Made by a program: the position numbers and the translations under genes. DNA of 64,000 nt from a bacterium. GTDB taxonomy: Bacteria > Pseudomonadota > Alphaproteobacteria > Rhizobiales > Aestuariivirgaceae. The stretch covers positions 1 to 64,000 of the forward strand of contig JALHQC010000019.1 of assembly GCA_022842165.1 (NCBI GenBank). The letters are read 5' to 3'. Below, piece after piece: positions 13,793-26,214 of the stretch (position 1 is its first letter; the number at the start of each line of letters is the position of its first letter). The notes below the pieces were generated by a model that did not search any database, was not told where the DNA came from, and was given only the letters and a program-made list of their open reading frames with translations.

Positions 13793-13876
13793 CCGTCATG
13801 CCCGCGAAGGCGGGCACCCCGCTTCTTCTTTCCGCCGCTTCGCGCGAAGCGGGATCCCGGCTTTCGCCGGGAGGAC
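13793..13876. repeat. Dispersed bipartite palindromic repeat, intergenic copy
   Basis: The left arm starts CCGTCATGCCCGCGAAGGCG (13793) and contains its own small hairpin CCCGC..GCGGG. The right arm (13850-13876), read on the other strand, begins CGTCCTCCCGGCGAAAGC and matches the left arm. Such CGTCAT-CCCGCGAA-GCGGG repeats are abundant in many alphaproteobacteria. It lies between the metallophosphoesterase and ogt genes and may act as a bidirectional terminator. A second copy is embedded in cobN (23834-23909). Confidence 0.75.
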
Positions 13877-13893
13877 GTTTGAAGTAGGATTCA

Positions 13894-21871: not shown

Positions 21872-22489
21872 TCAGAACTCGATCCCGGCCTGCGCTTTCA
21901 CGCCGGATCGGAAGGGGTGCTTCACCTGCTCCATCTCGGTGACGAGATCGGCGATCTCGATCAACTCGTCCTTGGCGTTGCGGCCGGTGACGATCACGTG
22001 CTTGTCGGCCGGCTTGTTCTTCAGCACGTCCAGCACTTCATCGAGCGCCAAGTAATCATAGCGCAGCACGATGTTCAGTTCGTCGAGCAGCACCATCTTG
22101 TAGCCGGGGTCGGCGATCATCTTCTTCGCCTCTTCCCATGCGGCGCGGGAATGCGCGATGTCGCGCTCCCGATCCTGGGTTTCCCAGGTGAAGCCCTCGC
22201 CCATGGCCTTGATGGTGACGAGGTCGGGGAATTTTTCCAGCACGGTGCGCTCGCCCGTGCCCCAGGCGCCCTTTACGAACTGGATAACGCCCGACTTCAT
22301 GCCGTGGCCGACGCAGCGGAACACCATGCCAAAAGCGGCGGTGGACTTGCCCTTGCCCTTGCCGGTGTGGACGATGAGCAAACCCTTCTCGATGGTCTTC
22401 CCCGCCATGATCTTGTCGCGGGCGGCCTTTTTCTTCGCCATCTTCTCGTGGTGGCGGGCGTTGTCGTGGTCTTGTGTTTCTTCGGTCAT
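21872..22489 (-). CDS. cobO: Cob(I)yrinic acid a,c-diamide adenosyltransferase
   Basis: A 205-residue CobA/CobO-type ATP:corrinoid adenosyltransferase. IVHTGKGKGKSTAAFGMVFR is the P-loop, GVIQFVKGAWGTGER the corrinoid-proximal block, and VLLDELNIVLRYDYL the Walker B-like block. It adds the upper adenosyl ligand to cob(I)yrinic acid a,c-diamide after cobalt insertion. The N-terminal 25 residues are basic and helical as in CobO. It overlaps the cobN stop by four bases and ends its operon, with no hairpin terminator seen. Confidence 0.96.
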   Translation of the reverse strand: MTEETQDHDNARHHEKMAKKKAARDKIMAGKTIEKGLLIVHTGKGKGKSTAAFGMVFRCVGHGMKSGVIQFVKGAWGTGERTVLEKFPDLVTIKAMGEGFTWETQDRERDIAHSRAAWEEAKKMIADPGYKMVLLDELNIVLRYDYLALDEVLDVLKNKPADKHVIVTGRNAKDELIEIADLVTEMEQVKHPFRSGVKAQAGIEF

Positions 22490-25400
22490 CGGGTCAACTC
22501 CTCAAGGAGATCATAGGCTGAATTGAGTCGCGGCGTCCAAAGTCCGCGCGTGGCGGCCTCGCGGAAGCGCTCCGCGATTTCCTTCAAGGCGGCGGGATTG
22601 TTGGCGCGGATGAAGTCACGGGTTTCGGCATCGGCGACATAGGCATCGAAGGCCAAGTCGAAGTGGTGGGTGCGGACCGCACCGGTGGTGGCGGCGAAGG
22701 CGAACATATAGTCGACCGTCGCCGCAATCTCGAAGGCGCCCTTGTAGCCGTGGCGCTTGACGCCGGCGATCCATTTCGGATTGACCACGCGGGAGCGCAT
22801 GACGCGGCCAACCTCCTCTTCCAGCGTGCGGATCACCGGGCGCTCGGGACGCGAATGATCGTTGTGATAGACGCGCGGGCGCGTGCCGGAGGTCTGTTCG
22901 ACGGCCGCCGTCATACCGCCTTCGAACTGGTAGTAATCATCCGAGTCCAGCAAGTCATGCTCCCGGTTGTCCTGGTTGTGGACGACGGCCTCGATGCGCT
23001 TCAGGCGCTCGGTGAATGTGCGCTCGTCACTGATGCCCTGAGCCTTGGCGCCATAGGCATAGGCGCCCCAGGTGACATAAGCCGCCGCAAGATCGGCGCG
23101 GCTTGTCCAGATTTTTTCATCGATCAGCGCCTGAAGGCCCGCGCCATAGGCGCCGGGCTTCGAGCCGAAGATTCGGTGGCCGGACATTTCGCGGGCATCC
23201 GCAGCGGCGATGCCGGAGGCTTCGAGGGATGCTGCCTCAGTTTTCATGCGGTGGGCGATGGGGTTGTCGTCCTCGTCCTCATCGAGTGAACCGACAGCTC
23301 GCATTGCCTTGTCGAGAAGTTCGATCTGCGAAGGGAAGGCATCGCGGAAAAAGCCCGAGATGCGGAGCGTGACATCGACGCGCGGGCGGCCGAGCCTGGC
23401 GAGCGGAATGATCTCATAGCCAGTGACGCGCCAGCTTGATGGTTCCCACACCGGCCTCGCGCCGATGAGGGAGAGGGCTTGCGCGATGTCGTCGCCGCCG
23501 GTGCGCATGTTGGAGGTGCCCCAGGCGGAGAGGCCCAGGGCCTTCGGATATTGTCCGCAGTCCTGAAAGTGACGGGTCAGAAGATCTTCGGCCGACTTCT
23601 GCCCTAAGGTCCATGCCGTGGGCGTGGGTACCGTGCGGTTGTCGAGGGAATAAAAGTTCCGGCCCGTGGGGAGAACGTCGAGACGGCCGCGCGTAGGAGC
23701 TCCCGATGAGCCGGGGGCGACGAAGCGGCCGGAAAGGCCCTTCAGCAGTGAAGCGATTTCGCTGCGGCCGCAGGCGCGGAGGGCGGGGCGGATTGCGGTT
23801 TCAAGAACTTTCAGAACCGCCTTTGTTCTGGCTCCGTCATTCCAGCCAAAGCGGGAACCCAGATTTGCTTTCGAAGGAAGCGGGGCCCCCACCTTCGCGG
23901 GGGTGACGGACAATGGGGCAGGGTTTGCCAGGAGGTAGGACGCGAAAAGCTCCAACCGTTCGACTGTATCGCCAGCCGTGCGCCAAGGGCTAGCGGACAA
24001 TTCGGCAAGCTCTTCGGGTTTTGGCCCCGCCCATGGCTTTCCCATGTCGCAGGTGAGGGGATCGAAATCGCCGAATCCGAAGTCGATGCTCAGGGCACGG
24101 ATCAATGACTGGTCGCCGCCTTCACCGAGGCCGCGGGGTACACGCGTCAGGGCAACCAGAAGATCGGTTTCAAGGCGGCCTTCGGGTGATTGCCCGAGGA
24201 TATGAAGGCCATCGCGGATCTGGGCTTCCTTCAAGTCGCAGAGGTAAGAGTCGAGGCGCTGCAAGTCGGCATCTTCATCGCCGGTGAAGCCTGCGTCGAG
24301 GTCGAGGCGCGAGGCCCTGGTGAGGTCGAGGATATTGCGTTTCAGGGCATCCATGCGGCGGCGGTCGAGGCCCGAGGCAAGGTAGTATTCATCGACGAGG
24401 GATTCGAGATCCTTCAGCGGGCCATAGGTTTCGGCGCGCGTGAGAGGCGGTGTCAGGTGATCGATGATGACAGCGCCGGTGCGGCGCTTGGCTTGGGTTC
24501 CTTCGCCGGGGTCGTTGACGATGAAGGGATAGAGCTGCGGCAGGGCCCCAAGCGTGATCTCGGGATAGCAGGACGCGGACAAGGCATTGGCCTTGCCCGG
24601 CAGCCATTCGAGATTGCCGTGCTTGCCGTTGTGGATGACGGCGTGAGCGCCAAAATGGTGACGGATCCAGAAATAGAAGGCGAGATAACCGTGCGGCGGC
24701 ACGAGGGCAGGGTCGTGATAGGTCGATTTCGGATCGATGTTGTAGCCGCGCGCCGGCTGGATGGCGACCGCAGCATTGCCATAGATGCAGACAGGGAGAT
24801 GAAATGCGCCTTCAGCAAAGAAGGGATCGCGTGCGGCTTCGCCCCAGCGGGATGTGATCTGTGCGCGGATGGAATCGGCAAGCGCATCGAACTGAGTGAG
24901 ATAGTCGGCGATGGCGAGCGATGGGCCAGTCTGCCTGGTGACGGCGTTGGTCGTACCGGCCTGCAAGTGCTCAATGATGCCGTTGCCGGTCGAGGGATAG
25001 CCTGCGACCGAGTAGCCTTCGGCCTTCATCGCATCGAGGATTGCAATCGTGCTCGCGGGTGTATCGTAGCCCACACCATTGGCGATGCGGCCGTCCTTGT
25101 TCGGGTAATTGGCGAGGATGATTGCGACGTTGCGTTCCGCAGGTTTCAATTTGCGGAGCTTAACCCAATTGGCAGCAAGATCAGCGACATAGTCAACGCG
25201 GTCGGGGACTTCGCGGTAGGTGACGATCCGGCATTGCGTGGCCTCGTGCCAGTGTGTGTCGGCCTTGAAGGAAATGGCGCGCGACATGATGCGGCCATCG
25301 AGTTCGGGCAGAACGATGTTCATCGCGAGATCGCGCGCGCCCAAGCCTTGCGAGGACTCGCTCCAGCTTTCCTCCGAGGAGCCCGCGAGCACGACCTGCA

Positions 25401-26214
25401 ACACGGGGCAATCATGGGCAGCGAGTGGATCGGCGCTGCCTCCTGAAGCGACTGCGAAACTGGTCGCGTTCAGGATGATGTGCGGTGCGTGCGGCGCGAG
25501 AGACTGCGTGAGACACTCAACGCTCGCGCGATCCTTCAGGCTGGCGACGTAAAAGGCCTTGGTGCCAATTCCGCGCCTGGCCAGCGCATCGACCAACGCA
25601 TCGATGGGCGCGGTCTGCGCGCCTTCCAGGGCAGACCGGTAGAAGGTGATGGCCGCGAGCGGCAGATCGTCTTGCGAGGTATCGCGATAAAGGCCCGCCT
25701 TCGGGAGTTCGGAGGCGGGTTCAGGCGGAGTTGAGCCGTTCAGCAGGTGATTGCAGTAGGTGAGGAAGGCTGCCGCGTTCGCGGCACCGCCCATGACGAG
25801 ATATTGCCGGAGCCGCTCGCAGTGATGCGGTGCAATCGTCGAGCGGGATGTGAGTTCCGGGTCCGGCTGTGCATCGCCCGGCAGCACTGCGAGCATGATA
25901 CCGCGCTCGCGAGCCATCGCTTCGATCTGGTCAAGGCCGTAGGTCCAATAAGAGACACCGCCCAGAAGCCGGAGCACGACGAGCTTCGCGTGCGCGAGGG
26001 TATTCTCGCAATAAAGATCAACCGAGAGATTGTGCTGAAGCTGGAGCAGATTGGCCGAGCGCAGCGGGCACGGGTTCGCATCATGGGCGCGGGCGATCAA
26101 TGCGAGTTCGCTGTCGGCGGCGGAGAGCACCACGATGTCGGCTGGAGTCTGACGGAGATCGATGGCTTCTGCTGCGCCATCGACCACTCCGGACGTGGTG
26201 GCAAGAAGATGCAT
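22486..26214 (-). CDS. cobN: Cobaltochelatase subunit CobN
   Basis: A 1242-residue large subunit of the ATP-dependent CobNST cobaltochelatase, which inserts cobalt into hydrogenobyrinate a,c-diamide in the aerobic route. Family blocks include AIILANYPNKDGRIANGVGYD, PPHGYLAFYFWIRHHFGAHA, HNGKHGNLEWLPGK and SGAPTRGRLDVLPTGRNFYS. Residues about 769-794 (SVTPAKVGAP...GWNDG) are encoded by a dispersed palindromic repeat (23834-23909) in a poorly conserved linker, without breaking the frame. cobS and cobT are not in the window. It overlaps cobW by one base and cobO by four. Confidence 0.95.
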   Translation of the reverse strand: MHLLATTSGVVDGAAEAIDLRQTPADIVVLSAADSELALIARAHDANPCPLRSANLLQLQHNLSVDLYCENTLAHAKLVVLRLLGGVSYWTYGLDQIEAMARERGIMLAVLPGDAQPDPELTSRSTIAPHHCERLRQYLVMGGAANAAAFLTYCNHLLNGSTPPEPASELPKAGLYRDTSQDDLPLAAITFYRSALEGAQTAPIDALVDALARRGIGTKAFYVASLKDRASVECLTQSLAPHAPHIILNATSFAVASGGSADPLAAHDCPVLQVVLAGSSEESWSESSQGLGARDLAMNIVLPELDGRIMSRAISFKADTHWHEATQCRIVTYREVPDRVDYVADLAANWVKLRKLKPAERNVAIILANYPNKDGRIANGVGYDTPASTIAILDAMKAEGYSVAGYPSTGNGIIEHLQAGTTNAVTRQTGPSLAIADYLTQFDALADSIRAQITSRWGEAARDPFFAEGAFHLPVCIYGNAAVAIQPARGYNIDPKSTYHDPALVPPHGYLAFYFWIRHHFGAHAVIHNGKHGNLEWLPGKANALSASCYPEITLGALPQLYPFIVNDPGEGTQAKRRTGAVIIDHLTPPLTRAETYGPLKDLESLVDEYYLASGLDRRRMDALKRNILDLTRASRLDLDAGFTGDEDADLQRLDSYLCDLKEAQIRDGLHILGQSPEGRLETDLLVALTRVPRGLGEGGDQSLIRALSIDFGFGDFDPLTCDMGKPWAGPKPEELAELSASPWRTAGDTVERLELFASYLLANPAPLSVTPAKVGAPLPSKANLGSRFGWNDGARTKAVLKVLETAIRPALRACGRSEIASLLKGLSGRFVAPGSSGAPTRGRLDVLPTGRNFYSLDNRTVPTPTAWTLGQKSAEDLLTRHFQDCGQYPKALGLSAWGTSNMRTGGDDIAQALSLIGARPVWEPSSWRVTGYEIIPLARLGRPRVDVTLRISGFFRDAFPSQIELLDKAMRAVGSLDEDEDDNPIAHRMKTEAASLEASGIAAADAREMSGHRIFGSKPGAYGAGLQALIDEKIWTSRADLAAAYVTWGAYAYGAKAQGISDERTFTERLKRIEAVVHNQDNREHDLLDSDDYYQFEGGMTAAVEQTSGTRPRVYHNDHSRPERPVIRTLEEEVGRVMRSRVVNPKWIAGVKRHGYKGAFEIAATVDYMFAFAATTGAVRTHHFDLAFDAYVADAETRDFIRANNPAALKEIAERFREAATRGLWTPRLNSAYDLLEELTR
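23834..23909. repeat. Bipartite palindromic repeat translated within cobN
   Basis: The left arm CCGTCATTCCAGCCAAAGCG and, on the other strand from the right end, CCGTCACCCCCGCGAAGGTG are diverged copies of one unit, and both match the intergenic repeat at 13793-13876. The element is about 76 bases and stays in the cobN frame, encoding roughly 25 residues of a variable linker. This resembles palindromic elements known inside rickettsial proteins. Confidence 0.7.

Follow-up and report, generated by a model that had tools for sequence, protein, structure and literature searches.

An in-frame palindromic repeat in CobN

How does a palindromic repeat with a counterpart between genes come to be translated as part of a large conserved enzyme, and what would have carried it there? 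The question arises from a window of 64,000 nucleotides, by which we mean the whole stretch of DNA analysed (positions 1 to 64,000 of contig JALHQC010000019.1, assembly GCA_022842165.1, Aestuariivirgaceae), which belongs to a draft genome of 4.3 Mb in 117 contigs (G000; other G numbers denote the genomes compared with it). The host protein, CobN, serves cobalamin synthesis, to which cobalamin uptake is an alternative for many bacteria. This cobaltochelatase large subunit (1242 aa) is encoded on the reverse strand at 22489..26214, with its stop codon at 22486-22488, and gives a single Pfam match, CobN-Mg_chel (1224 bits, residues 137-1229), while the CobN of PDB 9uk9 aligns to it over residues 1-1240.

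The repeat occupies 76 bp at 23834..23909 and, by arithmetic, corresponds to approximately residues 769-794; the frame stays open through it, and the preliminary description of this locus was right to call it translated in frame. Its claim of a two-armed structure akin to an intergenic copy was likewise upheld, as both arms were located and a second head-head dimer of the window lies between genes at 13793..13878 (its end falls at 13876-13878 according to the arm taken). The outer arm at 23834..23855 on the forward strand, CCGTCATTCCAGCCAAAGCGGG, begins with CCGTCATTCC and shows 0 mismatches to the search pattern, and the arm at 23888..23909 on the reverse strand, CCGTCACCCCCGCGAAGGTGGG, begins with CCGTCACCCC and shows 2, the pattern having been designed so that copies from the window match it. 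The arms face outward, and since both read CCGTCA, each unit carries the CGTC motif at its outer terminus. By eye, the layout reads CGTC-ATTCCAGC-CAAA-GCGGGAAC-CCA and CGTC-ACCCCCGC-GAAG-GTGGGGGC-CCC, with roughly 6-7 of the 8 stem pairs formed (also by eye, against the 8-bp stem and 4-bp loop given as standard in the sections of PMC3733652 consulted). This structure fits the CGTC-tagged REP repeats, CGTC-1 type, described by Di Nocera et al. 2013 (PMC3733652, same sections). As RNA, the 76 nt are predicted to fold with -39.1 kcal/mol (z -3.96). The cobN copy does not stand out in an ungapped stem test (p 0.63), its two arms having diverged.

That an assembly error wrongly joined the repeat into cobN is hardly credible: the genome is indeed a draft of 117 contigs, but the insert leaves the reading frame intact, and in many other genomes this loop is occupied by different repeats.

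Linker length in relatives

The repeat lies in a linker at residues 757-810 (23785..23946, reverse strand), which is 54 aa long here. Outside the family, the best 80 of 591 CobN stretches were taken, eight of them were counted as family members and the other 72 were used; 70 of these approximately 72 have an equivalent linker of 29-35 aa, the exceptions being L083 (46 aa) and L154 (40 aa), the former containing FVIAGLDPAIH, which we take to be another repeat. The family search covered 69 genomes, mostly drafts of many contigs and, where named, mostly metagenome assemblies; 62 matched, and 58 linkers were usable after G006, G032 and G061 (paralogue or partial) and G066 (without a usable linker) were dropped. 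Of these 58 linkers, 30 are at most 36 aa and the other 28 exceed that length. By shuffles (p <=0.02), a palindrome was significant in 17/28 long linkers vs 0/30 short ones; divergence between its two arms keeps the window's own 54-aa linker out of the 17.

The preliminary description had proposed that the repeat was inserted rather than evolved in place, and the alignment of relatives bears this out, since their linkers are not all of equal length and are short in nearly all CobNs outside the family. Evolution in place was rejected given these short linkers, and by sequence comparison the cobN repeat is an insertion.

Recurrent filling of CobN loops

Inspection of the 58 family linkers by eye gave a recognisable repeat in 24, none in 28 and an unclear state in six (G013, G023, G069, G082, G087 and G088, the linker of G087 being significant in the palindrome test); the labels given to CobN repeats, like the control-site absences and in-gene cases below, were all judged by eye. 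The fillings differ in kind. CGTC dimers or their decayed remains account for 16 of the 24, the linker repeats of G021 and G009 form almost perfect palindromes, and CTCCC palindromes occupy the linkers of G016, G020 and G068 at three separate places on the CobN tree. G073 and G074 carry a double insert of another repeat plus a CGTC unit, and further palindromes occur in G071, G084 and G086. The linker of G068 is 214 aa long: an entire DUF559 domain (E 7e-34) stands there, flanked by CTCCC palindromes, and a single reading frame runs from the CobN sequence before it to the CobN sequence after it. The AlphaFold model of this chimera is poor (mean pLDDT 65). A quick CobN tree computed without the linker, in which many forks are weak, requires at least 13 changes when the repeat states are told apart, or 10 when presence and absence are scored, and its parsimony counts do not separate gain from loss.

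A rather doubtful alternative is that a single CGTC insertion in the genus was followed by many losses and by conversion from arm to arm, in place of recurrent gain. Such a history is possible because most inserts of the genus share one register (of the SSFPRRRES/SSSRRKPGS type), and it draws further support from decayed forms in G005, G010 and G024 as well as from parsimony counts that fit losses as readily as gains. Evidence against it is given by the CTCCC fillings of three separate tree places, by the other palindrome of G071 and the double insert of G073/G074, and by CGTC units in genus g34, while the window's own insert has another register.

Along CobN as a whole, length varies most in this main linker and next at residues 427-429 (24928..24936, reverse strand), a second acceptor loop that is empty in the window's genome and filled in some relatives. 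Long inserts occur there in 9/56 genomes, with a significant palindrome in 5/9 vs 1/47 without a long insert. Five genomes have 32-43 additional residues in this second loop (G018, G031, G001, G019 and G011; L049, L054, L051, L053 and L050, respectively) and a short main linker; several of these inserts show VKPGDD-like repeat sequence, and the palindrome is significant among the five in G001 and G031 only. Elsewhere in the protein, the CobN of G008 (L065) carries three CGTC units, at positions equivalent to approximately residues 181, 404 and 768, and the CobN of the outgroup G058 (L060, outside the family) has 117 aa with palindromic repeat-like sequence where residues 176-190 stand (15 aa here).

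Copies in other genes and control sites

Genome-wide, the pattern matched 105 times (56 + 49) with up to 3 mismatches, vs 13 (6 + 7) for a reversed-pattern control, in line with the dispersed copies anticipated for this repeat; within the window alone there are 7 matches, which is not significant (12/100 shuffles reach 7). Head-head dimers make up 26 of the 50 units kept, which came from fetched loci only among the 105 matches. As for copies in coding frames, about which the preliminary description had asked, four CGTC units were found by eye inside conserved genes of this genome, namely those for CobN, E2, MobA and FolP, and the remaining long frames across CGTC units resembled upstream or opposite-strand frames. 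Across the four proteins, translation of the repeat uses three different frames, MobA and FolP sharing one. An unusual openness of the dimers in all frames was considered and rejected, head-head dimers having 1-5 open frames of 6, which is close to a rough expectation worked out by hand. In addition, a TruB open reading frame (L002, G000:C4 near 39400) has an internal stretch, DPHPNPSPQGGGA, that resembles a CTCCC-type repeat in translation, with a CGTC unit just upstream.

The FolP, MobA and E2 insertion sites served as three controls. No repeat was seen by eye at the FolP site in 29 relatives (best 30 loci of 63 matching genomes, own included), at the MobA site in 29 relatives (best 30 of 67, own included) or at the E2 site in 11 relatives, four of them close orthologues. 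The MobA case is particularly clean, with 26-28 aa in relatives vs 56 aa in the window's genome. Since the three control sites are empty in the relatives examined, the CobN loop stands out as one that has accepted repeats of several families recurrently; comparing the other CobNs (23/57 filled) with the pooled controls (0/69) gives a Fisher p of 6e-10, on counts made by eye and ignoring relatedness.

Recurrence by itself would be compatible with pure tolerance, in which insertion is random everywhere, nothing attracts repeats and the CobN loop is one of many neutral linkers. This reading we hold at even odds. It agrees with the low confidence of the CobN loop in the structural model, where it is probably flexible, with the inserts collected by the second CobN loop (long in 9/56), and with the E2 insert, which sits between the lipoyl and E3-binding domains. 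The empty FolP, MobA and E2 sites (0/29, 0/29 and 0/11) count against it, as CobN recurs more, although the cause is not thereby given.

CobN as a probably tolerant host

The AlphaFold model of CobN fragment 570-950 (mean pLDDT 78.8) places the insert between helices 747-763 and 795-827, with pLDDT <50 at residues 769-779 followed by a short low-confidence helix, and a fold search with this fragment yielded CobN and ChlH, both superposing poorly at the global level. In the sequence alignment to 9uk9, and thus at the level of sequence, the loop is much shorter in 9uk9. Outside the linker, dN/dS was 0.04-0.16 in 11 CobN pairs, 10 of which have at least one insert-bearing member, values that are rough because dS exceeds 1 in several pairs. 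CobN remains under purifying selection. Taken together, the dN/dS values, the predicted loop and the shorter loop of 9uk9 make a tolerant loop the simplest reading of the linker. The added peptide is probably without function of its own, because the repeat is read in three frames across CobN, MobA, FolP and E2; the same diversity of frames led us to reject selection for one peptide.

A role for the repeat within CobN, whether as an mRNA hairpin slowing translation between domains or as a longer linker tuning contact with CobST, is very unlikely. The strong predicted hairpin (z -3.96) and the position between two helices would suit such a role, but 28/58 family members have no recognisable insert and six are unclear, the linker is short in 70 of approximately 72 CobNs outside the family, and both the frame and the family of the repeat differ.

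Small GIY-YIG genes with CGTC ends

The ends of the cobN repeat recur around a gene. On G000:C78 (L209, 1485-1908), an element of 424 bp has perfect 32-bp inverted CGTC ends around a GIY-YIG gene (PF01541, E 2e-13), and similar elements occur in G028 (444 bp, 26 bp to the first mismatch) and G010 (419 bp, 31 bp). With their continuations, the cobN arms are identical to the C78 element ends at 31/33 bases (arm at 23888..23909) and 24/33 bases (arm at 23834..23855), and the arms of the MobA insert at 30/33 and 26/33.

Arms were also counted beside such genes. Within the family, 9/21 small GIY-YIG loci have a CGTC arm no more than 300 bp away on either side, and 12/21 have one on at least one side, leaving 12/21 without arms on both sides and 9/21 without arms on either, and controls with arms on both sides numbered 0/30 for FolP, 0/26 for MobA and 0/25 for DUF559 (small GIY-YIG 9/21 vs FolP and MobA 0/56, Fisher p 2e-6). 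In a class sample of 48 genomes, arms were present on any side of 6/19 small GIY-YIG genes and on both sides of 3/19; for UvrC, which has the same domain and was told apart by an open frame of 613-676 aa, the counts were 1/6 and 0/6. Loci that were too short were excluded, in the family 9/30 for GIY-YIG, 9/34 for DUF559, 4/30 for MobA and 0/30 for FolP, and in the class 3/22 for GIY-YIG, 1/7 for UvrC and 1/19 for DUF559, where eight further DUF559 loci with weak or partial matches were also left out. GIY-YIG genes are therefore shown to be associated with CGTC arms. In the class sample, small GIY-YIG genes at L377, L380 and L390 also adjoin significant palindromes of other kinds (arms containing CCGTTCGCCCTGAGCTTGTCGAAGGGCG or CCTCATCCTGAGGAG are examples), and because of these the link between GIY-YIG genes and palindromes is suggested to extend beyond CGTC repeats.

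From the association and the identity of the ends, we infer that the nuclease is tied to the CGTC repeats, that the CGTC dimers may be miniature forms of the GIY-YIG elements and that they would be mobilised as such. Ends and gene seem to move together, because the ends are perfect over 32 bp in G000 and 31 bp in G010. No target-site duplication was readable by eye at the three GIY-YIG elements or at MobA, and PF01797, of the RAYT type, had 0 matches in G000 and matched in 5/14 control genomes.

The relation might also be the reverse, with the GIY-YIG gene a parasite of the homing type that invaded older CGTC dimers which something else had spread. We regard this as rather unlikely, though it would produce an identical anatomy. 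The gene does sit between two arms, at the position of the dimer's loop, and at some loci the arms of a whole dimer lie on each side of it, as such an invasion would leave them; the long identical ends of G000 and G010, however, suggest joint movement of ends and gene, and no alternative mover of the PF01797 type matched in G000, nor are CGTC repeats associated with transposase genes in the part of PMC3733652 consulted.

DUF559 genes and CTCCC palindromes

A parallel association was found for the domain caught in the CobN of G068. Within the family, CTCCC stems flank DUF559 genes in 25/50 flanks vs 1/112 for FolP and MobA together vs 0/42 for GIY-YIG, and in the class sample they occur in 12/36 DUF559 flanks (18 strong matches). 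DUF559 is formally a domain of unknown function, which we take to be a nuclease; it gave a restriction-enzyme-type Pfam match below the cut-off. In the window's genome, all five DUF559 genes (L203-L207, on C8, C60, C14, C56 and C2) adjoin CTCCC-type palindromes, by eye on both sides at four of the five, C56 being the exception. A strict CGTC pattern found no arms beside four of these loci and the truncated fifth, and looser CGTC patterns gave a few arms near DUF559 genes, never on both sides.

Significance was assessed with random single-base shuffles on flanks of 230 or 260 bases, and counts of flanks with a significant palindrome vary between runs for this reason: in the family, 25 or 26/50 for DUF559 and 21, 20 or 22/42 for GIY-YIG, vs 4, 6 or 7/60 for FolP and 0 or 1/52 for MobA, and 11 or 13/38 for GIY-YIG in the class sample.

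A possible route of insertion

The best overall explanation, to which we assign a probability of roughly 0.78, takes the insert to be a mobile CGTC-tagged REP dimer, miniature and non-autonomous, that came to lie in frame in a CobN loop between two helices and was tolerated there, its spread by a GIY-YIG protein being the conjectural part. The GIY-YIG protein, a nuclease by family, would spread CGTC dimers by acting on such ends: it may cut DNA at or near CGTC ends, and the whole unit, or a dimer without the gene, could then be copied into a new place during repair. Insertions would be frequent and selection would remove most of those in coding DNA, whereas in-frame insertions in the CobN loop may persist, presumably because added residues do little harm there. 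A DUF559 protein may play a like role for CTCCC palindromes. In a wider scheme, GIY-YIG proteins would be the movers of CGTC/GTCAT palindromes and DUF559 proteins those of CTCCC palindromes, with gene-less dimers as the miniatures and the history of both recorded in the CobN loop; this scheme seems to us about equally likely to hold or to fail.

The GIY-YIG element with CGTC ends offers a concrete candidate, testable at the bench, for repeats that apparently lack a dedicated transposase (PMC3733652, abstract). The CobN loop preserves, in nature, a history of in-frame insertions made repeatedly into a working enzyme, from which one can study how mobile DNA turns into protein sequence and which loops accept added domains. 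If the scheme is true, the great palindrome families of the Alphaproteobacteria would owe their movement to small stand-alone nucleases, the drivers missing so far, and the history of the CobN loop would include one DUF559 domain caught in frame (G068).

Comparison with known systems

Searches of open-access literature yielded nothing on a recurrent acceptor loop in CobN, nothing among the matches listed on GIY-YIG genes with CGTC repeats (by title in the wider search), and nothing on palindromes with DUF559 by title and opening of the abstract; the main text of PMC3733652 mentions neither DUF559 nor CobN. Palindromes inside genes are themselves already known, both as the RPE of Rickettsia (PMC2229807, in part) and as intragenic REPs (PMC3733652, in part), so that the preliminary description's term "rickettsial-style" was apt as an analogy; PMC12306157, in part, contributed nothing further. 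According to the portions of PMC2229807 used here, RPE (Ogata et al. 2000) are palindromic repeats translated in frame inside conserved enzymes, and an RPE-bearing Gmk product is active with changed substrate affinity. The CobN insert resembles them in being a palindrome translated in frame within a conserved protein gene and is likened by mode, not by repeat sequence, in another group of organisms; unlike the CobN case, RPE are in those portions tied neither to a nuclease nor to one repeatedly filled host gene.

The closest relatives are the CGTC-tagged REPs of Di Nocera et al. 2013, which in the sections of PMC3733652 consulted have a stem of approximately 8 bp, a loop of 4, a tail near CCA and head-head dimers, are mostly intergenic with some in frame within genes, are commonest in Alphaproteobacteria and, per the abstract, apparently have no dedicated transposase. 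The repeats studied here share the CGTC tag, the many, mostly intergenic copies, the frequent head-head dimers and some in-gene copies, with a layout that by eye fits at about 6-7 of 8 stem pairs in the CobN copy, and differ from that description in that the CGTC arms are also the ends of a GIY-YIG element. That text gives one case of insertion at the same site, recB in two Xanthomonas species, whereas here one CobN loop is filled in 24/58 genomes by several families.

Two further systems combine palindromes or mobility with a single gene. REPtrons, as presented in the same sections of PMC3733652, pair GTAG REPs with RAYT, so that short palindromes flank one gene and many copies lack it, as in the present case; here a GIY-YIG or DUF559 gene replaces the tyrosine transposase, and G000 has no PF01797 match. 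GIY-YIG homing endonucleases (PMC1564403, in the parts available) likewise link a small GIY-YIG protein to mobile DNA, and the main text of that source does not contain "palindrom"; the elements described here differ from them in having palindromic terminal repeats and many gene-less copies.
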